Assembly: GCF_030644385.1 (NCBI RefSeq)
Contig: NZ_CP130060.1
Coordinates: forward strand, 620,001 to 684,000
Origin: Stomatobaculum sp. F0698
GTDB lineage: Bacteria > Bacillota > Clostridia > Lachnospirales > Lachnospiraceae
Length of the DNA: 64,000 bases
Direction: 5' to 3'
Below the pieces are notes generated by a model, which had not been told where the DNA came from, did no database searches, and was given only the letters and a program-made list of their open reading frames with translations. This document shows, in pieces, positions 1 through 12,900 of this stretch. The position numbers and the translations under genes are program-made. Each line of letters opens with the position of its first letter. Position 1 is the stretch's first letter.

Positions 1-2514
1 GCCATTCAGGAGAGCAACAGCATCAACCGTGCGCATCTGAAATATTTCGGCGCAGGGATGGGCGATATTGAAAAGAATGCCGCTAAAATGCAGATGGAAG
101 GTCTACTGGACACCCTGACCGATGCCAAGGAGTACGGCTCTATCCTGAATGTGGAGAACTACAACTGGGAGCTGCTGCGCCGCTTTGTGTCCGCTGCGGA
201 TGCCGGAGAGCAGATTACGATGGATAGCGCCGGTTTGGAAGGAACCGTGGCGCAGCTGTTGACCCTCATTGACATCGCGGAGACGATGGAGTGGAAGTAT
301 GATGTGGTTGTGACCAATCCACCGTATATGGGCAGTTCGGGGATGGATGCCAAGCTCTCGGATTTTACGAAAAAGAACTATCCAGACAGCAAAAGTGATT
401 TGTTTGCCTGCTGCATTGAAAAAGGAAATCAGATGACCGTTAAAAACGGATTTAACTGCATGGTTACCATGCAAAGCTGGATGTTTTTGAGCAGCTTTGA
501 AAAAATGCGTACCACTATTTTGCTGAGTAAAGATATTACAAATTTGATGCACATGGAAAATATGGTGATGGGGATTGCTTTTGGAACGGTAGTTACTGTA
601 TTTCGCAATAGCTATACATCTGGCTATAAGGGAACCTATAATTACATTAAAATGCAAGATATTAAAGATGAAGTTCCCGCAGAGTTTCCTATTAGCGTAA
701 ATCGCTTTGCTCAAGTGAGCACAGACTGCTTCTCCAAAATACCGGGAAGTCCAATAGCGTATTGGCTTGGAAGGCAGATGCTTGCAGCATTTAATAATCC
801 CGCAATAAATACTATTGGTGCGGCAAAACAAGGTCTTGCCACTGGCAACAATGATTTATTTCTTCGATTATGGTATGAGTGCAGTTTTGCAGATATTGGT
901 TTTAATTGTGCCTCAAGAGAACAGGCAATGAAATCTCATTGTAGGTGGTTCCCCTGTAATAAAGGTGGCGCATTCAGAAAATGGTATGGTAACAATGATT
1001 ATGTGGTAGACTGGGAGAATGATGGATATAGAATACGCAACTTTAGAGACGAAAATGGAAAGCTGCGTTCAAGGCCGCAAAATATGGATTACTATTTTAG
1101 GGAAGGAATTACTTGGTCTACTCTGAGCATAGGGCAATTATCAATGCGTTTAAGTCCGGAGGGGCATCTGTTTGAAACAAAAGGATCGGTTTGCTTTTTC
1201 AGCTCAACTTCCCATTTATACTATGTTCTTGGTATTGTGAATTCAAAGGTTGTATATGAACTTTTGCAGGTTCTTTGTCCTACAGTAGATTTTCATGAAG
1301 GGCCAATAGGAAAAATACCCGTTATCATAGACACCGAAATGGAAAGTGCTGTAATTCAACTTGTTAAAGATAATGTTCAGCTTGCTAAGGCAGACTGGAA
1401 TGTAGCTGAAACAGCATGGGACTTTCAACGGCATCCACTTGTTCCCTCACATCAGATGAAACAAGAGCAACTGAATTCACAATTTGCTTCTTCCAGAATG
1501 GAGAAGTTCGGAAGATTATCATGGCATTTTGATAACTGGAGCAAAGAATGTGAAAGCCGATTCGCCCAGCTCAAGGCTAATGAGACAGAATTAAACCGCA
1601 TTTTTATTGACATTTACGGCTTGCAGAATGAGTTGACTCCGGAAGTAGAAGATAAAGATGTGACCGTACGCAAGGCTGACTTGCAGCGGGATATCAAGAG
1701 CCTGCTCAGCTACGCCGTGGGTTGTATGTTTGGCCGCTACTCTACTTATAAGGATGGCTTGCTTTTTGCGGGAGAACCGTATTCCTTGCAGGCGTTTGTG
1801 GATAAGATGAACGACCGCCCCGGAACGATTTCTGCCGAAGAATTGCAGCGCGCATACCGCAATGAGGGTGTTGTGGTTGATGAAATGTTCTTCCCGGATG
1901 CCGACAATGTTATCCCTATCACCGATGAAGAATATCTGGACGATGATATCGTATCGCGCCTGTGTGCATGGCTGAAAGCAGCGTACGGTGCTGATACACA
2001 GGAAGCAAACCTCGATTATATCGCAAAAGCCCTTGGCAATAAGGGCAGCACCAGCCGGGAGATTATCCGTAACTACTTCCTGAACGATTTCTTCAAGGAT
2101 CACTGCCAGACTTACTCTGTCACTGGCTCCGGCAAGCGTCCAATCTATTGGCTGTTTGACAGCGGCAAGCAGAACGGCTTCAAGGCGCTGATCTACCTTC
2201 ACCGCTACACGCCGGACACCATCGGCAACCTGCGTATCGACTACCTGCACAAGATGCAGCGCGTGTATGAATCCGAGATCAACCGGATGCAGGATATGAT
2301 GGATCACAGCGAGAATGCCCGTGAAGTGGCAGCAGCCTCCAAGCGCAAGGATAAACTTGCCAAGCAGCTGAAGGAATGCCGGGAATACGATGAGAAGATC
2401 AGCCATCTGGCACTTTCCCGTATCGAGCTTGACCTTGATGACGGCGTGAAGGTCAACTATGAGCAAGTCCAGACTGTGGACGGCGTAAAATACCCGGTAT
2501 TGGCAAAGATATAA
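1..2514 (+). CDS. pglX: BREX type 1 adenine methyltransferase PglX (BrxX), 5' end cut by window
   Basis: The reading frame is open from the first base, so this is the 3' part of a longer gene (PglX is usually about 1,200 residues; about 837 are visible). The NPPY(MG) motif of N6-adenine DNA methyltransferases lies near visible residue 106; the SAM-binding motif I should be upstream. PglX marks host DNA at a non-palindromic site so that BREX spares it. The identification rests on this motif, on the long C-terminal region typical of PglX, and on the pglZ and brxL genes downstream. The middle (about 340-1600), where target recognition is expected, is visibly more AT-rich than both flanks, which suggests exchange of the recognition domain. 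The next gene starts 36 bases downstream on the same strand. Confidence 0.9.
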   Translation, partial: AIQESNSINRAHLKYFGAGMGDIEKNAAKMQMEGLLDTLTDAKEYGSILNVENYNWELLRRFVSAADAGEQITMDSAGLEGTVAQLLTLIDIAETMEWKYDVVVTNPPYMGSSGMDAKLSDFTKKNYPDSKSDLFACCIEKGNQMTVKNGFNCMVTMQSWMFLSSFEKMRTTILLSKDITNLMHMENMVMGIAFGTVVTVFRNSYTSGYKGTYNYIKMQDIKDEVPAEFPISVNRFAQVSTDCFSKIPGSPIAYWLGRQMLAAFNNPAINTIGAAKQGLATGNNDLFLRLWYECSFADIGFNCASREQAMKSHCRWFPCNKGGAFRKWYGNNDYVVDWENDGYRIRNFRDENGKLRSRPQNMDYYFREGITWSTLSIGQLSMRLSPEGHLFETKGSVCFFSSTSHLYYVLGIVNSKVVYELLQVLCPTVDFHEGPIGKIPVIIDTEMESAVIQLVKDNVQLAKADWNVAETAWDFQRHPLVPSHQMKQEQLNSQFASSRMEKFGRLSWHFDNWSKECESRFAQLKANETELNRIFIDIYGLQNELTPEVEDKDVTVRKADLQRDIKSLLSYAVGCMFGRYSTYKDGLLFAGEPYSLQAFVDKMNDRPGTISAEELQRAYRNEGVVVDEMFFPDADNVIPITDEEYLDDDIVSRLCAWLKAAYGADTQEANLDYIAKALGNKGSTSREIIRNYFLNDFFKDHCQTYSVTGSGKRPIYWLFDSGKQNGFKALIYLHRYTPDTIGNLRIDYLHKMQRVYESEINRMQDMMDHSENAREVAAASKRKDKLAKQLKECREYDEKISHLALSRIELDLDDGVKVNYEQVQTVDGVKYPVLAKI

Positions 2515-3978: not shown

Positions 3979-6591
3979 ATGGCAGAATTGAACCTGAAAC
4001 AAATTATAGACCGCCTGAATGCGGAATTTACCGGGGAGACCCGGAAACTGGTTTTCTGGTACGATGACAAGGCAGAATTTGCCGAGGATATGGAGACGGT
4101 GGAGCTCCAGAATGCGAAGATCTACTATCTTCAGCCGGATAACCAGTTCTATACAAAGTATTTTCTGGAGCGTGTGGATAAGACCACGAATTATCTGATC
4201 TATGCGCCGTTCCGCAAGCCGGATGTAAGGGACAACCATCTGGAAGACACTTGTGCTTATTCCAGGCGGTTCTTTGCCGACCGTGCCTCCCTGCTGTCGG
4301 TTGACCTTGGTATTGAGGAAAAGTATAAGCCGGTTATTGAGAAGCACATCAAGTTTTTCGCCAACAAGGAGCGTACTCAGCGATTCTATGATTTGGAAAT
4401 CGAGAACTTTAATGAAGAAAATATCCTTGTCGGCCTGCTGAGTGCAGTCTGCAAGGCGCGTACCTGCTCTTTTGAGGAAGTTGTGCGCATCGTGTTGACG
4501 GAGAAGGTGAATTTCGCCGAAGGCGAAAGAGAGACCGGCCTGGGCCGTGGCGAGCTGGTGGACAATGCTTTCTTGCAGGAGTTTGAAAAATACGATCTGC
4601 TGTCTGCATTCTGGCAGCTCTGTGAGCAGCATTTCGGATACACTGATACAAAGCCGAGTCTGGAACGGCTGCTGGTAACATTGTTCGTTACTTATACTGG
4701 TCGATATGTGCAGGCAGAGCTTCCGGCAGCATGGAAGAGCTTTGTCTCCTACAAGTCCGGTAATATCATCGCATTTCTCGATAGCCTGATGAACAGCATC
4801 CTGTACCGGGACAAATACGACGCTCTGTCGGCGCACGTTGCCAAAGGGCTGAATGTTTTTTCGGCATTTGCAGGAATGCGAGTGGACGATTTGATGGAGT
4901 GCGATACTTTCCTTGCCGTGGATCAGGTTCTGGTAAAGTGGCTCATTGACAGACTTGTCTCGGAAGATATTGGTGCAATCGTAAACGGATTTACCATTCC
5001 GGAACTCTGTGAAAAACGGGCTAAAATGCACTTTGGAAGAAAGACCGGGAAGACCTATCAGCTGCTTTCCAGTGCATACAGCATGGTGAAGGAAGCGGAT
5101 TACCATGCCGCAGATGGCTTAAAGCCAATCATCGACCGATATCTGGCTGCGGATTACAATATGGATCAGCAGTATCGGAAATTTTATTATTATTACGACA
5201 AGGTGAATTGCACCGAAGGGGCAAGAGAGGGTGGCCTGGGCCAACAGCTGGAGAGCACGGAAAGCTTTGAGCCGCTTCGTGAACTGGTGGAAAATATCTA
5301 CACGAACGAATATCTGGCTTGTCTGCTCCCAGCCTGGAATGCTGGAATCCAGCAGGATGCTGCATTTTCGGCAATTCCGTTGCAGCGGGAGTTTTACAAT
5401 GCCAACCTGCGCTATACCAAAGAACGCACCGTGGTTATCATTTCGGATGCCATGCGTTACGAGGTAGGACAGGAGTTGTTTTCCAGAATGCAGGATGACC
5501 CGAAATGCACGGCAAAACTTTCTGTACAGTTGGGTGTTCTTCCGTCTTATACGAGGCTCGGTATGGCAGCACTTTTGCCGCATAAAACACTGGAGATGAC
5601 GGATGACTTCCAGGTGCTGGTAGATGGTATCCTTTGCGATAATCTGGCAGGTCGGCAGCAGGTGCTGCAAAGCTATAACCCGGATAGTGTCTGTGTACAG
5701 TTCGATGATATCAAAAATCTGAAAGTGGCAGAGCTGCGAGATGTGCTGACAAAACGTCAGATTATCTATGTATACCATAATCAGATCGACGCGCGTGGAG
5801 ACAAGGCTAATACCGAGGATGAGGTGTTTCATGCGTGTGAGGAAGCTGTTCAGGAAATTATGGATTTGATTCATCGAATCTCCGTCAGCGGCAACACCTA
5901 TCATTTTATCGTCACTGCCGATCATGGCTTTATTTACAAGCGTGATAAGTTGACAGAAAGTGACAAGATTTCCGGGAAAATCGCGGACAAAGCATTTGTC
6001 AATCGCAGATTTATTGTTTCCAAGGCGGCACTGGAAAATGACGGCATCGATCATATGAGCATGGGACGCGTTCTGGGGAATGAGGACAGCAAGGTGGTCT
6101 CCTATCCTGTCAGCAGCAATGTCTTTAAGGTGGCCGGAGGCGGTGCTAACTATGTGCATGGCGGTTCCTCACCACAGGAAATGCTGGTGCCTGTACTGGA
6201 GTTTAAGATGGAACGCGGTCACATGGAAACAAAGAATGCAGAGATTGCCCTGGTCAGCATCGTCCATAAGATTACGAACCTGATCACTTCCATGGACTTT
6301 ATCCAGTCGGATGCCGTCAGTGATACTGTAAAAGCGGCAAAGTACCGCATTTTCTTCCTCTCGGAAGACAATGAGAAAATCTCGAACGAAAACAGTTATG
6401 TGGCGGACAGTCGTGAGGAAAATGCGCAGAAGCGTATCTTCCGGATGCGGTTCACATTCAAGAATAAGAAATACGACAAGGACAAGCAATATTACCTTGT
6501 GGTTTATGACGAAGAAAGCGGTCTGGAGCAGTGGAGGCAGCCTGTTATCATGGACATTGCCTTTGCGGATGACTTTGGATTCGGATTCTGA
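3979..6591 (+). CDS. pglZ: BREX type 1 alkaline-phosphatase-superfamily protein PglZ (type A)
   Basis: An 870-residue protein with the PglZ domain in its C-terminal half. The metal-site motif ISDAMRYE is near residue 487 and TADHGF near residue 647, both typical of the alkaline phosphatase fold. PglZ is a core BREX protein that acts with PglX and BrxC; its enzymatic role in defence is poorly defined. The length suits type 1 PglZ. The start lies 3 bases after the stop of the preceding gene and brxL follows after 23 bases, so all are probably one transcript. No truncation or frameshift is visible. Confidence 0.92.
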   Translation: MAELNLKQIIDRLNAEFTGETRKLVFWYDDKAEFAEDMETVELQNAKIYYLQPDNQFYTKYFLERVDKTTNYLIYAPFRKPDVRDNHLEDTCAYSRRFFADRASLLSVDLGIEEKYKPVIEKHIKFFANKERTQRFYDLEIENFNEENILVGLLSAVCKARTCSFEEVVRIVLTEKVNFAEGERETGLGRGELVDNAFLQEFEKYDLLSAFWQLCEQHFGYTDTKPSLERLLVTLFVTYTGRYVQAELPAAWKSFVSYKSGNIIAFLDSLMNSILYRDKYDALSAHVAKGLNVFSAFAGMRVDDLMECDTFLAVDQVLVKWLIDRLVSEDIGAIVNGFTIPELCEKRAKMHFGRKTGKTYQLLSSAYSMVKEADYHAADGLKPIIDRYLAADYNMDQQYRKFYYYYDKVNCTEGAREGGLGQQLESTESFEPLRELVENIYTNEYLACLLPAWNAGIQQDAAFSAIPLQREFYNANLRYTKERTVVIISDAMRYEVGQELFSRMQDDPKCTAKLSVQLGVLPSYTRLGMAALLPHKTLEMTDDFQVLVDGILCDNLAGRQQVLQSYNPDSVCVQFDDIKNLKVAELRDVLTKRQIIYVYHNQIDARGDKANTEDEVFHACEEAVQEIMDLIHRISVSGNTYHFIVTADHGFIYKRDKLTESDKISGKIADKAFVNRRFIVSKAALENDGIDHMSMGRVLGNEDSKVVSYPVSSNVFKVAGGGANYVHGGSSPQEMLVPVLEFKMERGHMETKNAEIALVSIVHKITNLITSMDFIQSDAVSDTVKAAKYRIFFLSEDNEKISNENSYVADSREENAQKRIFRMRFTFKNKKYDKDKQYYLVVYDEESGLEQWRQPVIMDIAFADDFGFGF

Positions 6592-6614: not shown

Positions 6615-8735
6615 ATGGAAATGATGGATATGGCGGTAGACGATACCCGTGAAGAACTGCGTCGAAAGCTGCGTAGCAACTTTGACGGTCGTATCGTCCG
6701 CAAAGACCTGACAAAGAAAATAAAAGAAGGAGCAAATGTTCCGGTCTATGTGCTGGAGTTCCTGCTGGGTCAGTATTGTAGTTCAGACGATGAGGCAATC
6801 ATTGAGCAGGGCGTTCAGAATGTGAAACGTATTCTGGCAGACAACTTTGCCCGCCCGGATGAGGCTCAAAAAATTCTCTCACAACTGCGCAAGAACGGGA
6901 GCCATACCATTATTGATATGGTGACAGTGCATCTGGACATCAAGAAAGACTGTTTCTTTGCCGAATTTTCCAATCTTGGCCTGACGAATGTGCCAATTTC
7001 CGACGACTATCCGGAGAAATACGACCGGCTGCTGTGCGGCGGTATCTGGTGCATTGTGCAGCTGGAATATGAAGTGGAGGGCGACAGCAGCTTTGGCATT
7101 ATCAATGCCGATGGCGATCCGTTGCGCTCTAAACAGAAGAAACAGAAGGACATTTCGCCCATCAGCATCCGCAAGCTAACACCGATTCAGATGCCGCACA
7201 TTGACATTGACGAGCTGAAGCAGGGACGCAAGGCATTTACAAAGGATGAATGGCTGGATGTACTGCTGCGCTCCATCGGTATGGAGCCAGACGAGTTTAC
7301 TTATCGTGAAAAATGGCTGTTGCTGACCCGTATGATTCCGTTGGTTGAGAACAACTTCAACCTGTGTGAGCTGGGGCCGAGAAGCACCGGTAAATCACAT
7401 CTGTACAAAGAAATCTCGCCAAACAGTATTCTGATCTCCGGTGGGCAGACGACGGTGGCAAACCTGTTTTATAACATGGGCCGCAAGACAGTTGGTCTGG
7501 TTGGCCTATGGGATTGTGTTGCCTTCGATGAGGTGGCCGGTATTCGCTTCAAGGATAAAGACGGCGTGCAGATTATGAAGGACTACATGGCCTCCGGTTC
7601 TTTCGCTCGCGGCAAGGAAGAAAAGGCTGCAACGGCCTCGATGGTCTTTGTCGGTAACATCAATCAGAGCGTGGACGTGCTGCTGAAAACGTCCAGCCTG
7701 TTTGACCCGTTCCCGCCGGAAATGGGCACCGACACGGCATTTCTCGACCGTATGCACTGCTATCTCCCCGGCTGGGAGATTCCGAAGTTCCGCCCGGAGC
7801 ATTTCACGAATGACTATGGCTTTATCAGCGATTATCTGGCAGAGTTCATCCGGGAACTGCGCAAGGAACAGTACGGCGATGCGCTCGACCATTACTTCCG
7901 TTTGGGCAAGAACCTGAACCAACGTGATACCATCGCCGTGCGCCGTATGGTGGATGGCTATCTGAAGCTGCTCTATCCTGATGGGGAGTTTACCAAGGAA
8001 GAACTGGAGGAAGTCATCCAGATTTCGCTCGAAATGCGCCGTCGTGTGAAGGATCAGCTGAAAAAGCTGGGCGGCATGGAGTTCTACGATGTGAACTTCT
8101 CCTACATAGACAATGAGACCTTTGAGGAGCATTACGTTTCCGTTCCGGAACAGGGCGGCGGCAAGCTGATTCCGGAAGGGATGTGCAATCCGGGTCAGGT
8201 CTATACCGTTTCGCAGGGCAAGTCCGGTATGATCGGCGTATTCCGCCTTGAAAGCCAGATGCTGCCCGGCAACGGAAAATTTGAGCGCACTGGCCTTGGT
8301 AGCGACCGTGATTGCAAGGAATCCACGAATACGGCGTTCAATTTCCTGAAAGCAAACGGAAATCGTATCAGTGGCAGCATCAGCACTACGATGCGGGATT
8401 ACATCATCAACTATCAGGATTTGCAGGGCATCGGGATGACTGGGAAACTAGCGCTGCCGACTCTGATTGCGCTGTGCTCCATCGCGCTGGGCAAGCCCGT
8501 ACTTAGCAGTATGGCTGTCCTGGGGGAGATCAGCATCAGCGGAACAATGATAAAAGCCGATGAACTGGCGAATTCCTTGCAGGTATGCATGGACAGCGGT
8601 GCGAAGAAAGTGCTGTTGCCGATTACCTCGGCGGCGGATTTGACGACAGTTCCGGCAGATTTGATTGGGAGCTTTAATTTGATCTTTTATAGCAGCGCTG
8701 AGGATGCAGTGTTTAAGGCATTGGGGGTGGAATGA
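6615..8735 (+). CDS. brxL: BREX type 1 Lon-like AAA+ protein BrxL
   Basis: A 706-residue AAA+ protein. The P-loop reads GPRSTGKSH near residue 253 and Walker B is VAFDEVAG near residue 302. The C-terminal 200 residues (SISTTMRDYI, LPTLIALCSIALGKP, KKVLLPITSA) have the Lon-protease-like fold of BrxL. BrxL forms a large DNA-binding assembly and completes the type 1 BREX set (BrxA, B, C, PglX, PglZ, BrxL); brxA-brxC are expected left of the window. AGAGGAGG sits about 12 bases before the first ATG, a rather long spacing; further ATGs in frame follow closely, so the start is uncertain by a few codons. The stop overlaps the start of the next gene (ATGA). Confidence 0.93.
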   Translation: MEMMDMAVDDTREELRRKLRSNFDGRIVRKDLTKKIKEGANVPVYVLEFLLGQYCSSDDEAIIEQGVQNVKRILADNFARPDEAQKILSQLRKNGSHTIIDMVTVHLDIKKDCFFAEFSNLGLTNVPISDDYPEKYDRLLCGGIWCIVQLEYEVEGDSSFGIINADGDPLRSKQKKQKDISPISIRKLTPIQMPHIDIDELKQGRKAFTKDEWLDVLLRSIGMEPDEFTYREKWLLLTRMIPLVENNFNLCELGPRSTGKSHLYKEISPNSILISGGQTTVANLFYNMGRKTVGLVGLWDCVAFDEVAGIRFKDKDGVQIMKDYMASGSFARGKEEKAATASMVFVGNINQSVDVLLKTSSLFDPFPPEMGTDTAFLDRMHCYLPGWEIPKFRPEHFTNDYGFISDYLAEFIRELRKEQYGDALDHYFRLGKNLNQRDTIAVRRMVDGYLKLLYPDGEFTKEELEEVIQISLEMRRRVKDQLKKLGGMEFYDVNFSYIDNETFEEHYVSVPEQGGGKLIPEGMCNPGQVYTVSQGKSGMIGVFRLESQMLPGNGKFERTGLGSDRDCKESTNTAFNFLKANGNRISGSISTTMRDYIINYQDLQGIGMTGKLALPTLIALCSIALGKPVLSSMAVLGEISISGTMIKADELANSLQVCMDSGAKKVLLPITSAADLTTVPADLIGSFNLIFYSSAEDAVFKALGVE

Positions 8736-11098
8736 TGATTGAGTCGGTTCGTAAAATAAAGTTCACTGGGGGTTCTTTTACATCTGCAACGGAATTGCCC
8801 ATATTTCGGAATCAAAATGAACGAATGGCTCTTGTGTATGGTAGAAACGGAAGCGGAAAAACCACAATAGCAAAGGCTTTTATAAAAGTTAACGGTGGAG
8901 ATGTAAGCGATATTGATAGTGCAGCATTGCTCGACGAAAACGGCAATCCTGTGGTGCAGGGAACAGATGAAGCTACGCGGCGAGTCTATGTTTTTAATGA
9001 GGAGTATATACAAAGAAATGTTCGTTTAAAAGAAGATGGTTTAAGTACGATAATTATGCTTGGCGTACAAGCAGAGTTAGAGGAAAAAATTATTGCAGCA
9101 CAGGACGCATTGACGGCTAGCGAAAATGCGAGAAAGCAGCAGGAAGAAGTATGCAACACATATTCAGATAGATCGTCTGTTCTTGCGCCCGCATATCACC
9201 GCGCTAAAATGAATAATGCTTTATCTGGAGATACTCACTGGGCTGGCAGAGAAAGAGTAATTAAAGAATATCGTCGTAACGCCGCTGTTAATGATAGCAC
9301 TTATAATACGATTATCTCATCAGCCCCAGCACTATCTGAAGCTGATGTAGAATCTGAATATCGTAAAAAATATGATGTGCTTTCTGCTGCGAAAAGCGGA
9401 AGTGCAGCGATTTCACAAAGCGTTCAAGTTCATATTCCTGAGTTTAGAGATGATGATATTATCATGATCCTGGCAGAAAGAATAGAAAAGCCTGAATTGA
9501 CACCACGAGAAGAATTTCTACTCACTCTGGTTGAGTCCGGTCAACTTCAGAAAATAGAGGAAACTTTCTCTAATGAAGCTGTGAAACAATGTCCTTTCTG
9601 CTTACAGCCAGTTACGGAGGAATATAAGAATAATTTAATTGAAAGTATAAAAAAGGTACTATCCAGGCAAGTTGAGGATCACAAGGAATGCTTATCAAAG
9701 CTAATATTCCAACAGATAAGTTTTGATATTAATCCATTTAGTAAACTTAATCAATCGACGGTAAATAACGTAAAAAATGCGGTTGCTGCATTAAATGATG
9801 CAATAGAAAAGTGCAATACGGAAATCAAGAAGAAAATTGCCAATCCTTTTGAACCAATATTAGGGGTAGAATTTGGACTCCAAGAAAAGCGGGCTGCGTT
9901 AGAGAGTGCAATTAGAGACTTGGAAGCCGCAAGAGTAGAGTACAATAAACCTTTTCGTGATATTAGCAAGATCAGATCCGAATTGCAGGTGTTAAATAAG
10001 CAAAGGGCCTATTATGAGATTTTGCCAATCTATGAGACCTATTTAAAACAGTCCAAAGAAAAGGAAGATGCTGATTCCAAGTTCGAGCAATTAAAGGAAG
10101 ATGCGCTGACCAAGAAGAAGACGCTTGACGAATTACTTGCGCAGAAGAAGAACATTATGATTGCAGTTGATGTAATCAATAGTAATCTTCGCTATATCTT
10201 TTTTGCTAATGACAGATTGGCAATAAAAGTGAAAGACGGTGTATATCTGCTCCAGTCAAATAAAGCAGACGTAAAACCAAACGATATATCGCTCGGGGAA
10301 CGTAATATAATTGCACTCTGTTATTTCTTCGCAGAAATGCTTTCGGGCTGTGCTATAGAAGATGCGTATACAAATGAGGTATTGGTAGTCATCGACGACC
10401 CAGTTTCAAGCTTTGATTTTGAAAACAAAATCGGTATCATATCTTTTTTGAGATCGCAAATGCGAAAAATTATGTGTGGAAATCGCAATTCAAAATTATT
10501 GGTCATGACGCATGATCTACCAGCTGTATTTGACTTGGAAAAAACCTTTAATGAGATAAAAGCTACCGCAAAGGATGAAATCGGCACTGAATGTAACTAC
10601 CTCCTTCTGGAATTGAAAAATCGGCAGCTTGTTGATTTCAGGTACAAAAAAAGGCACGAATATAGCGAGCTTTTAAAAACGATTTATGATTTTGCAGTTA
10701 ATGGTACTCCTGATAATGATATGATAATTGGGAATACAATGCGACGGGCATTGGAGACTTTTTCGACTTTTGTTTATAAAAAGCCCATAGATGCAATATC
10801 ATGTGACAAGGATGTCTTATCTTTACTTGGTGAAGAATGCTATGTAACATATTTTGAAAACTTGATGTACCGCCTGGTTCTTAATGGAGAAAGCCATATG
10901 GAGGAACGAGCTAAAACTCTTGTAGATGCCGATTTTGTTGCAGTCCTCTCTCCGGATGAAAAGAAAAGAACGGCTCGGGATATTTTGTGTTTTATGTATT
11001 TGCTGAATCCGGTTCATGTAAAGGCACATTTGGCTGATATAAATGATGCGGATTGTCAAATTCAGGGCTGGTGCAGCAAGATAAAAGAATTCACATAA
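8732..11098 (+). CDS. RloC-like zinc-hook ABC ATPase, probable anticodon nuclease
   Basis: A 788-residue AAA_13-type protein. Walker A (GRNGSGKTT) is at residues 37-45, a coiled-coil region carries CPFC at 287-290 (zinc-hook type), the ABC signature LGERN is near 521, Walker B is IDDPVSSFD near 552, followed by the H-loop THDLP. The C-terminal domain has R671/R672 and E675 (MRRALE) and H722 (ESHME), in the order of the Arg-Glu-His triad of PrrC/RloC anticodon nucleases. RloC is the zinc-hook relative of PrrC and cleaves tRNA anticodons after DNA damage or phage attack. The gene overlaps the brxL stop by 4 bases, so it is translationally coupled to BREX, yet it is clearly more AT-rich than brxL, which suggests separate acquisition. 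The family call is fairly sure; nuclease activity is inference. Confidence 0.78.
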   Translation: MMIESVRKIKFTGGSFTSATELPIFRNQNERMALVYGRNGSGKTTIAKAFIKVNGGDVSDIDSAALLDENGNPVVQGTDEATRRVYVFNEEYIQRNVRLKEDGLSTIIMLGVQAELEEKIIAAQDALTASENARKQQEEVCNTYSDRSSVLAPAYHRAKMNNALSGDTHWAGRERVIKEYRRNAAVNDSTYNTIISSAPALSEADVESEYRKKYDVLSAAKSGSAAISQSVQVHIPEFRDDDIIMILAERIEKPELTPREEFLLTLVESGQLQKIEETFSNEAVKQCPFCLQPVTEEYKNNLIESIKKVLSRQVEDHKECLSKLIFQQISFDINPFSKLNQSTVNNVKNAVAALNDAIEKCNTEIKKKIANPFEPILGVEFGLQEKRAALESAIRDLEAARVEYNKPFRDISKIRSELQVLNKQRAYYEILPIYETYLKQSKEKEDADSKFEQLKEDALTKKKTLDELLAQKKNIMIAVDVINSNLRYIFFANDRLAIKVKDGVYLLQSNKADVKPNDISLGERNIIALCYFFAEMLSGCAIEDAYTNEVLVVIDDPVSSFDFENKIGIISFLRSQMRKIMCGNRNSKLLVMTHDLPAVFDLEKTFNEIKATAKDEIGTECNYLLLELKNRQLVDFRYKKRHEYSELLKTIYDFAVNGTPDNDMIIGNTMRRALETFSTFVYKKPIDAISCDKDVLSLLGEECYVTYFENLMYRLVLNGESHMEERAKTLVDADFVAVLSPDEKKRTARDILCFMYLLNPVHVKAHLADINDADCQIQGWCSKIKEFT

Positions 11099-11219: not shown

Positions 11220-11480
11220 TTATTTCAAAAAGTTGCTCTTATGTTCCAGTGCGTGCAGATTATAGCCAAGGGTGGCCAGGTGTGCTACCTTCAGCACAAC
11301 CAGATTGATGTCAGTGGACATCGCACTGGCAATCTGTTCGGCGGTGTATCCATATTCATAGATGTAGCGAAGGACTTCATCGCTGTCCATCAGGATTTCT
11401 GCTGCTACGATGTTGGCTTCATATTCAGGTTTGGATTTCATATCGTAAAGCATGAACTCATGAATCGGGGTGGTTTTCTC
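11220..11480 (-). pseudogene. ImmA/IrrE metallopeptidase, C-terminal fragment
   Basis: The minus strand encodes HEF..YDMKSKPEYEANIVAAEILM followed by a helix-turn-helix-like tail. The EYEAN..AAEILM stretch is typical of the zinc-ligand and following helix of ImmA/IrrE peptidases, which cleave phage or ICE repressors. Everything upstream, including the HEXXH motif, is missing because the IS256 element begins at 11481. A short ORF from an internal ATG (11453) remains but should be non-functional. The fragment points to an earlier prophage or integrative element here. Confidence 0.65.
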
Positions 11481-12900
11481 GAGTGTGTGAAGAAATCTCT
11501 GTAAATAGGATTTCCTGTGATAGGATTTATGTCTGAGGGCTTACAAAAAGCAGCGTTATCGACCTTCAGACGGTTGCTTATTTTATAACGGATACAGGTT
11601 GACATGTCTACAGCGGGCGGAGAAATCCGCCCGTTTCGGCTGTTTATCGTGTCATTCGGGAAGCCGGTCTTCGTACATGATCGACAGCTCGCCGTAAACC
11701 TGCCCCCAGTTCCGGATTGTCATGCTCCATTTTTTCGTGGCTTCAAAGGTGGCCGGATACAGGGCCTTCAGAAGAGCCTGGGCACTGGGGAAAACGCTTC
11801 TCTGACGATTCAGCTTGCGGTATGTGGCGTTCAGACTCTCGATTGCGTTCGTCGTGTAGATGACGATTCTCACATTTGCGGAAAACTTGAAGATCGGAGT
11901 GATGACATCCCAGTCGCGTTCCCAGCGTTTCATGGCGTTCGGATATTTCTCCGACCACTTCTCTGTGATTCGGTCCCGGTTGGCGCGCCCCTGTTCCTCG
12001 TTGGGAGCATTATAGATCGTTTTAAGGTCATTGGCGAAGGCCTTGCGGTCTTTGTCTGACACGTATTTTAACGTGTTCCGGACCCGGTGGACGATGCAGC
12101 GCTGATATTCTGTCTTCGGGAAAGCCGTCTGGATCGCCTCGCGGATCCCAGTCAGCCCGTCAGCTGAGATAATCAGGATATCCTTAACCCCACGGTTCTT
12201 AAGGCTGTTGAGGACGGCCAGCCAGTACTTAGCACTCTCGTTATTGCCGACCTCGATTGTCAGGACATCTTTCTTTCCTTCGCAGCTGATCCCGAGTATG
12301 ACGTAAGCCGCCATCTTCCGAATAATCCCATTATCCCGAACCGAGTAGTGGATTGCATCGATGTAGAGGATGGGGTGCAGGATCTTATCCGTCACGTCCG
12401 ATATGAATCCCTCAGAGGCCTCAAAACCATAGATATCCATGAGTGTGGCAGAGATCTGGCGGGTGGTCATCCCCTTGGCATACATGGAGATGATCTTCTG
12501 ATCGATGTCAGAAATGTCTTTCTGCCGCTTCTTTAAGACTTTAGGCTCAAACGTGGACTTGCGGTCCTGCGGGACGTCGATTCGCATAGAACCGTAGCTG
12601 GAGTTGACAGTCTTTTCCTTGTAGCCGTTACGGTAGTCATCCATTTCGGCTTCCATCATCTCCTTGATGGTGCCGCCGAGCAGGTCTTTTAGAGCATCAT
12701 GGATATCCTCGGCAGTCTCAATGTCGTATTCCTGTAGGAGTTGCTGGATGATCTGGCGTTTGCCTTCGGTCATCACGACTTTGTGGACGGGTTTCTTTTC
12801 TCTTTTTGCCATAGTAAAGGCCTCCTGTGATTAGTGTATATCACAGAAGCCCCTGAAGGTATTTCTTATTCCGTTTTTACAGAAAAACTTTCATACTCTC
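11481..12900 (-). mobile_element. IS256-family insertion sequence
   Basis: Imperfect 25-base terminal inverted repeats, 11481-11505 and 12876-12900, each begin with GAG and end with TCTGTAAA when read inward. About 1.4 kb with one transposase gene on the minus strand, usual for IS256. The flanking bases do not form a matching 8-9 bp target duplication, and the flanks belong to different genes (ImmA fragment on the left, IS30 fragment on the right), so one side was probably rearranged after insertion. Confidence 0.8.
11652..12812 (-). CDS. IS256-family mutator-type transposase, probably with internal deletion
   Basis: A 386-residue protein with the DDE residues of the IS256 family: the first D in YIDAIHY, the second in ISADGLTG, and the E in TTNAIESLN. 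Related transposases normally have about 16-18 more residues between TDKIL and the YIDAIHY strand (a WQ.RPL segment); here TDKIL runs directly into HPILYIDAI. This looks like a small in-frame deletion and may have inactivated the enzyme, although all three acidic residues remain. It starts at ATG 12812 with AGGAGG-type ribosome binding upstream. Confidence 0.85.
   Translation of the reverse strand: MAKREKKPVHKVVMTEGKRQIIQQLLQEYDIETAEDIHDALKDLLGGTIKEMMEAEMDDYRNGYKEKTVNSSYGSMRIDVPQDRKSTFEPKVLKKRQKDISDIDQKIISMYAKGMTTRQISATLMDIYGFEASEGFISDVTDKILHPILYIDAIHYSVRDNGIIRKMAAYVILGISCEGKKDVLTIEVGNNESAKYWLAVLNSLKNRGVKDILIISADGLTGIREAIQTAFPKTEYQRCIVHRVRNTLKYVSDKDRKAFANDLKTIYNAPNEEQGRANRDRITEKWSEKYPNAMKRWERDWDVITPIFKFSANVRIVIYTTNAIESLNATYRKLNRQRSVFPSAQALLKALYPATFEATKKWSMTIRNWGQVYGELSIMYEDRLPE

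Follow-up and report, generated by a model that had tools for sequence, protein, structure and literature searches.

Why does the last gene of a BREX operon in Stomatobaculum sp. F0698 look like an anticodon nuclease gene, and what would such a nuclease do behind a DNA-modification defence system? The gene is the intact open reading frame (ORF) at 8732-11098 (forward strand) of the window, that is, the whole stretch of 64,000 nucleotides analyzed here (contig NZ_CP130060.1, positions 620,001 to 684,000), and is called rloC below. Judged from its sequence, the product has the hallmarks of RloC and fits the published definition of that protein. Furthermore, a BREX operon lacking the gene was found in a congener (G393), a locus that is new here. 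An RloC-type anticodon nuclease, attached to the end of the operon and serving as a break-triggered back-up, is probably the best explanation of the locus as a whole.

RloC has been defined by a size of 658-897 amino acids (aa), a CXXC-bearing insert and a C-terminal R-X3-E-X36-52-H motif, with a Ser often preceding the His (PMC2610378). The 788-aa product of rloC matched Pfam AAA_13 (E 2.4e-55) and also PADLOC PDC-S06, and its ABC ATPase is split by a CXXC-bearing insert (motifs at residues 37, 287, 519 and 552, and H594). The C-terminus reads R671-X3-E675-X46-S721-H722, with 46 residues separating E from H. The CPFC hook and the R671-E675-H722 set that a first-pass annotation of this DNA had placed in an ABC ATPase were thus all located in the translation. 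The bare motif is nevertheless weak evidence, since shuffled sequences reproduced it: R...E-36..52-SH arose in 127/20,000 shuffles of the C-terminal 184 residues and in 797/20,000 when the entire protein was shuffled; N..R...E-36..52-SH did so in 3/20,000 shuffles of the C-terminal part. Conservation in the subfamily is stronger sequence evidence for a nuclease site than this motif. In an alignment (A1) of eight members, gathered on overall similarity and not by the motif, R671, E675, S721 and H722 were invariant (8/8), and a ninth member (L056) agreed; the motif style of the subfamily is MR(R/Q)xLE and xSH.

When C-termini were compared by hhalign, the window region matched the RloC-type set, which was defined by motif and not by assay, with 95.5% probability (E 1.4e-8); the probability was 24.6% for the C-termini of other AAA_13 proteins and 0.6% for that of PrrC. 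The low PrrC score says little, because the RloC-type set also reached just 16.4% with PrrC. In an alignment (A5) of 20 C-terminal regions, including RloC-type proteins from viral contigs, five columns were invariant: N668, R671, E675, S721 and H722. Part of the invariance at R, E and H follows from selection, since the 18 RloC-type viral rows were retained from 23 candidates for carrying R-X3-E..(S/N)H, and the added value lies in the coinciding columns; the rows of another alignment (A3) were picked likewise, after 11/35 viral loci had shown R-X3-E-36..44-SH. RTILE and NILSH of LC744502, an E. coli plasmid protein annotated as "anticodon nuclease", fell on the same columns. With similarity to RloC-type proteins extending beyond AAA_13, both in the subfamily invariance and in the profile scores, the first-pass assignment to an RloC-like nuclease was upheld.

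Two other identities were discarded. An SMC/Rad50-like protein without nuclease was ruled out by the conserved triad and the C-terminal domain, and PrrC proper by size and zinc hook, PrrC proteins having 341-416 aa without a coiled-coil/zinc-hook insert (PMC2610378), whereas the window protein has 788 aa with a CPFC insert and its neighbors are BREX genes instead of type Ic hsd genes. Searches of PDB sequences gave one chance match with the window protein, two matches, both to the P-loop only, with A1, three AriA sequences (residues 1-57) and nothing else relevant with the RloC-type set A4, and no match with PrrC. Foldseek returned no match at E <=0.001 for the C-terminal model, and the full-length model was of low confidence.

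The operon to which rloC belongs is a type 1 BREX in the order brxA, brxB, brxC, pglX, pglZ, brxL. The first two genes scored above the Pfam cut-offs and the other four above the NCBIfam cut-offs, the upstream genes being taken from L015, a wider stretch of the same genome. The ORFs of brxL and rloC overlap by ATGA; the second Met (ATG at 8735) aligns with the first Met of most relatives, and a start there would leave a 1-base overlap (TGATG). Hence, the first-pass overlap of four bases holds for the ORF as called and would shrink to one base with the later start, and its word "fused" is right for the operon only, there being no protein fusion. Promoter-like and terminator-like sites occurred at chance level (8 vs 7.7 and 4 vs 2.9). 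Downstream of rloC, an IS256-family transposase gene lies at 11652-12812 on the reverse strand, and the long stretch homologous to F. naviforme stops short of it, at 11478.

The presence of the gene was compared across the genus (seven genomes), in which BrxL was found in three genomes and an rloC-type gene in two. F. naviforme ATCC 25832 (L002) has retained rloC with a brxL junction identical to that of the window, so that the linkage to brxL reported in the first-pass annotation is common to a second species. The two RloC-type proteins differ at 45/788 residues, and 0/24 checked motif residues were changed. The third congener, G393, carries the operon from brxA to brxL without rloC behind brxL. 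Its alignment to the window continues to 8731 and then stops; in place of the ATGATG of the window, its brxL finishes with TAA. Because this sister species possesses the same operon minus the gene, rloC appears to be an accessory, second layer of defence. Its gain appears likelier than its loss, because 47/48 other BREX loci (see below) also lack an RloC-type gene, though three species cannot settle the direction.

A later addition of rloC had been proposed from its higher AT content relative to brxL. The difference itself was borne out (GC 0.382 vs 0.515; GC at third codon positions 0.337 vs 0.638). As a sign of late arrival, however, it was dropped as weak evidence, since all seven relatives examined were likewise more AT-rich than their surroundings; the proposal draws its support instead from the rloC-free locus of G393.

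DNA identity between the window and F. naviforme was 97% each for pglZ and rloC and 84% over the brxL gene. The brxL gene is a recombination mosaic (window 6800-8700), its middle being mostly 74-82% identical to F. naviforme, with a synonymous divergence (dS) of 0.85 vs 0.05-0.10 in pglZ and rloC. The ratio of nonsynonymous to synonymous divergence (dN/dS) of rloC between the two species was 0.585 over 71 changes (p 0.053 in a Fisher test of neutrality), significantly higher than the 0.10 of pglZ (p 1.9e-6). This value may reflect either weak constraint or fast evolution, and is no proof by itself of a working gene.

Table 1. Positions of the rloC-type gene, its motifs, the neighboring BREX genes and the related proteins with a Peptidase_S24 domain. 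Positions refer to the window unless a locus is named.
Feature	Position	Strand	Score or remark
rloC-type gene, 788 aa, AAA_13 (PF13166)	8732..11098	+	alternative start 8735
Walker A GRNGSGKT, residues 37-44	8840..8863	+	
CPFC zinc-hook motif, residues 287-290	9590..9601	+	
ABC signature ISLGE, residues 519-523	10286..10300	+	
Walker B / D-loop start VVIDDP, residues 552-557	10385..10402	+	
Switch histidine H594	10511..10513	+	
Putative anticodon-nuclease (HEPN-type) region at the C-terminus, residues 605-788; all-helical by prediction	10544..11095	+	
R671 ... E675, part of predicted catalytic triad	10742..10756	+	
S721-H722, part of predicted catalytic triad	10892..10897	+	
brxL/rloC junction; brxL stop TGA 8733-8735 within ATGATG	8731..8737	+	homology to rloC-free sister ends 8731
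brxL, 706 aa	6615..8735	+	TIGR02653 1040 bits, cut-off 628
pglZ, 870 aa, BREX-1 type A	3979..6591	+	TIGR02687 583 bits, cut-off 270
Accessory gene in pglX-pglZ slot, Schlafen AlbA_2 + HATPase_c_4 + winged-helix, 476 aa	2545..3975	+	
pglX, 3' part; whole gene 1243 aa, begins upstream (L015:13783)	1..2514	+	NF033452 1462 bits, cut-off 500
Peptidase_S24-bearing member	L012:5108-7885	+	E 9e-20
Peptidase_S24-bearing member	L013:13608-16355	-	E 1e-19
Peptidase_S24-bearing member	L014:21-2054	+	E 1e-22

The position behind brxL was then surveyed in other BREX loci. BrxL was present in 38/392 genomes of the order and 54/388 of the phylum (the window's own included; the sets share genomes), and 75 loci, a part of these places that included L002, were scanned. 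Counting was restricted to 48 other loci from 46 genomes with pglZ present and at least 3 kb downstream, so that loci were left out when blastp revealed no pglZ or no brxL or when the sequence downstream was short. A gene on the same strand followed brxL within 150 bp in 34 of the 48, and the same 4-base overlap was seen in two loci (L033 and L043, longest-ORF starts). The first few positions held HEPN_Cthe2314, GmrSD, protein kinase, caspase, PLD nuclease, HamB-like, SspE-like and other proteins, and several scanned proteins had no match at all. The position behind brxL is a cargo slot. The gene order of the window, sought as the first-pass annotation had suggested, recurred in L002, but among the 48 others the sole RloC-type gene was in L046 (3698-9301; genome G254), from another genus. 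It belongs to a different subfamily (749 aa, CPFC, RRIIE-38-SH) and stands second behind brxL, the gene in between encoding a 398-aa protein that neither Pfam nor PADLOC matched. RloC-type genes have therefore joined BREX at least twice among the loci examined, but rarely. The pglX-pglZ slot varies within the genus as well, holding the Schlafen-type gene in the window and DUF3990/PDC-M13A in F. naviforme (L002:4295-4777), while in G393 it is free of genes of 100 aa or more; the Schlafen/minimal histidine kinase/winged helix-turn-helix architecture has been recorded in at least 1017 BREX/BR taxa (PMC12839542).

Outside the genus the subfamily was rare, with 4/391 other genomes of the order and 1/390 other genomes of the class (E 1e-20). 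When seven relatives outside the genus (five genomic and two plasmid copies) were searched with BREX proteins by tblastn, no BREX gene was found beside them in the 5-42 kb available for each, L012 and L014 being short or at contig ends. Three of the relatives (L004, L005 and L011) lie near recombinase genes. Viral contigs, searched with the window protein alone, gave five pattern matches, none of them a relative, and phage records gave one remote match only. Additionally, in three members, all from other genera, the nuclease region is followed at the C-terminus by a Peptidase_S24 domain (LexA/UmuD type), a domain that the window copy lacks. These members share a conserved GDSM, a CK and an LPLSAG/IPLSAG linker. 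We take GDSM to hold the serine and CK the lysine, and the linker to resemble an Ala-Gly self-cleavage site. Through this domain, an RloC-type nuclease could be tied to the SOS response; among the literature matches listed, no title or abstract start concerned such a fusion.

Among known systems, the RloC of G. kaustophilus and A. baylyi is alike in size, CXXC insert, ABC motifs and the R-X3-E-X36-52-SH triad (PMC2610378), with an E-H spacing of 40 in GkaRloC (R692-E696-H737) vs 46 in the window protein. The window gene differs in lying in BREX, RloC being otherwise alone or near hsd. RloC halts protein synthesis through tRNA cleavage, its biochemical marks being a cut in the anticodon loop with excision of the wobble nucleotide, activation by DNA breaks and restraint by Zn. 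The usual association of both PrrC and RloC with restriction systems, as stated in the first-pass annotation, is true of PrrC but not of RloC, for which 8/72 mapped genes were at type I or III restriction-modification (R-M) loci (PMC2610378). PrrC with the type Ic enzyme EcoPrrI likewise forms a nuclease gene within a DNA-modification defence operon, with stop/start overlap and aligned N-R-E-SH columns; its partner, however, is hsd, whereas that of the window gene is BREX, and one congener has BREX alone. In G394, a genome of the same genus with no BrxL match, a PrrC gene (L052:5306-12633; PADLOC PrrC E 1.3e-137) is flanked by hsdS and hsdM, overlapping each by 4 bases, with hsdR upstream. Both pairings, PrrC with Hsd and RloC with BREX, are therefore present in the genus. 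PARIS (AriA/AriB) also brings an ABC ATPase and a tRNase into BREX as accessory cargo (PMC12839542), the tRNase role being predicted for the window gene, but it consists of two genes with a TOPRIM nuclease, in contrast to one HEPN-type gene behind brxL. RloC-type HEPN genes in Pgl operons that also encode PglZ, PglX and a Lon-type ATPase were noted in 2013 in "a few instances" (PMC3710099), an account whose available part describes no rloC-free sister locus. A 2026 survey of BREX lists HEPN and Schlafen back-up effectors, a term search of its main text finding neither "RloC" nor "PrrC" (PMC12839542). No title or abstract start among the open-access literature matches listed dealt with BREX-linked RloC.

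Taken as a whole, the data favor a self-contained back-up nuclease triggered by DNA breaks, since the RloC of A. baylyi responds to double-strand breaks, and does so also when its host is deficient in R-M (PMC3874168). The protein would be a Rad50-like ABC ATPase, interrupted by a coiled-coil hairpin with the CXXC zinc hook and ending in a HEPN-type RNase domain whose active site, formed by Arg, Glu and His, works without a metal. Its gene would have joined the 3' end of the type 1 BREX in the ancestor of the window species and F. naviforme, or via transfer between them; its transcript is probably the BREX mRNA, with translation coupled to that of brxL. The ATPase would keep the nuclease off until DNA ends, arising from phage damage to host DNA or from BREX nuclease action, stimulate ATP hydrolysis and release it; cleavage of the tRNA anticodon loop would then stop translation and abort infections that outlast BREX. 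The absence of an RloC-type gene from 47 of the 48 surveyed loci weighs against this explanation.

The same rarity counts against a PrrC-like arrangement, in which the nuclease is bound and kept silent by BREX proteins and is freed once a phage inhibits BREX (e.g., by Ocr-type proteins), as with EcoPrrI and PrrC. This arrangement we hold to be rather unlikely, and it is a little more doubtful still that the BREX complex, perhaps through the translationally coupled BrxL, took over the role of type Ic enzymes for PrrC and silences the RloC-type nuclease until a phage inhibits BREX. The stop/start overlap is of the PrrC kind, as PrrC has 4-base overlaps with hsdS and hsdM (on a plasmid and in L052 of the same genus), and an RloC-type gene also stands in the BREX operon L046, from another genus. 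A further parallel is the ATPase-DUF4435 pair of a Salmonella BREX, presumably a PARIS. That pair, although located between pglX and pglZ unlike the window gene, is a precedent within BREX (PMC9009780), PARIS modules have been recruited by BREX (PMC12839542), and PrrC and PARIS both serve as precedents for silencing by a guarded system (PMC12707154, PMC12839542, PMC9009780). Nevertheless, RloC carries an internal switch and was active in an R-M-deficient host (PMC3874168), none of the seven relatives outside the genus showed a BREX gene in the 5-42 kb around it, and G393 has BREX without rloC. A mobile defence gene that landed behind brxL, decaying or acting for itself with no functional tie to BREX, is an unlikely account. 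The absence of any frameshift, the sparing of all checked motif residues among the 45 substitutions, the precise junction at the brxL stop and the 97% identity of rloC kept across two species, with brxL at only 84%, oppose it, in spite of a dN/dS significantly above that of pglZ, the recombinase genes near three relatives, the low GC of rloC and the IS256 element downstream. It also seems improbable that this subfamily of RloC-like build is a HEPN RNase for mRNA, rRNA or tRNA beyond the anticodon loop. Such a shift in substrate would suit the identity of just 19-21% to the RloC-type proteins compared (those of G. kaustophilus and A. baylyi were not among them), the subfamily's own motif style and the negligible direct match to the PrrC C-terminus; yet N668, R671, E675, S721 and H722 sit on the RloC-type columns, RloC-type C-termini matched far more strongly than other AAA_13, and the RloC-type set itself scored low with PrrC.

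Accessory RNases of BREX have so far mostly been catalogued through comparative genomics. The locus described here is a further case of RloC, usually a loner, built into a DNA-modification defence operon, and one genus offers the same BREX both with the RloC-type gene, attached at the stop codon of brxL, and without it. A guard or a back-up role is therefore directly testable within this genus. If BREX proteins do silence the nuclease, BREX would be the guarded system and the bare-BREX sister species its natural control.
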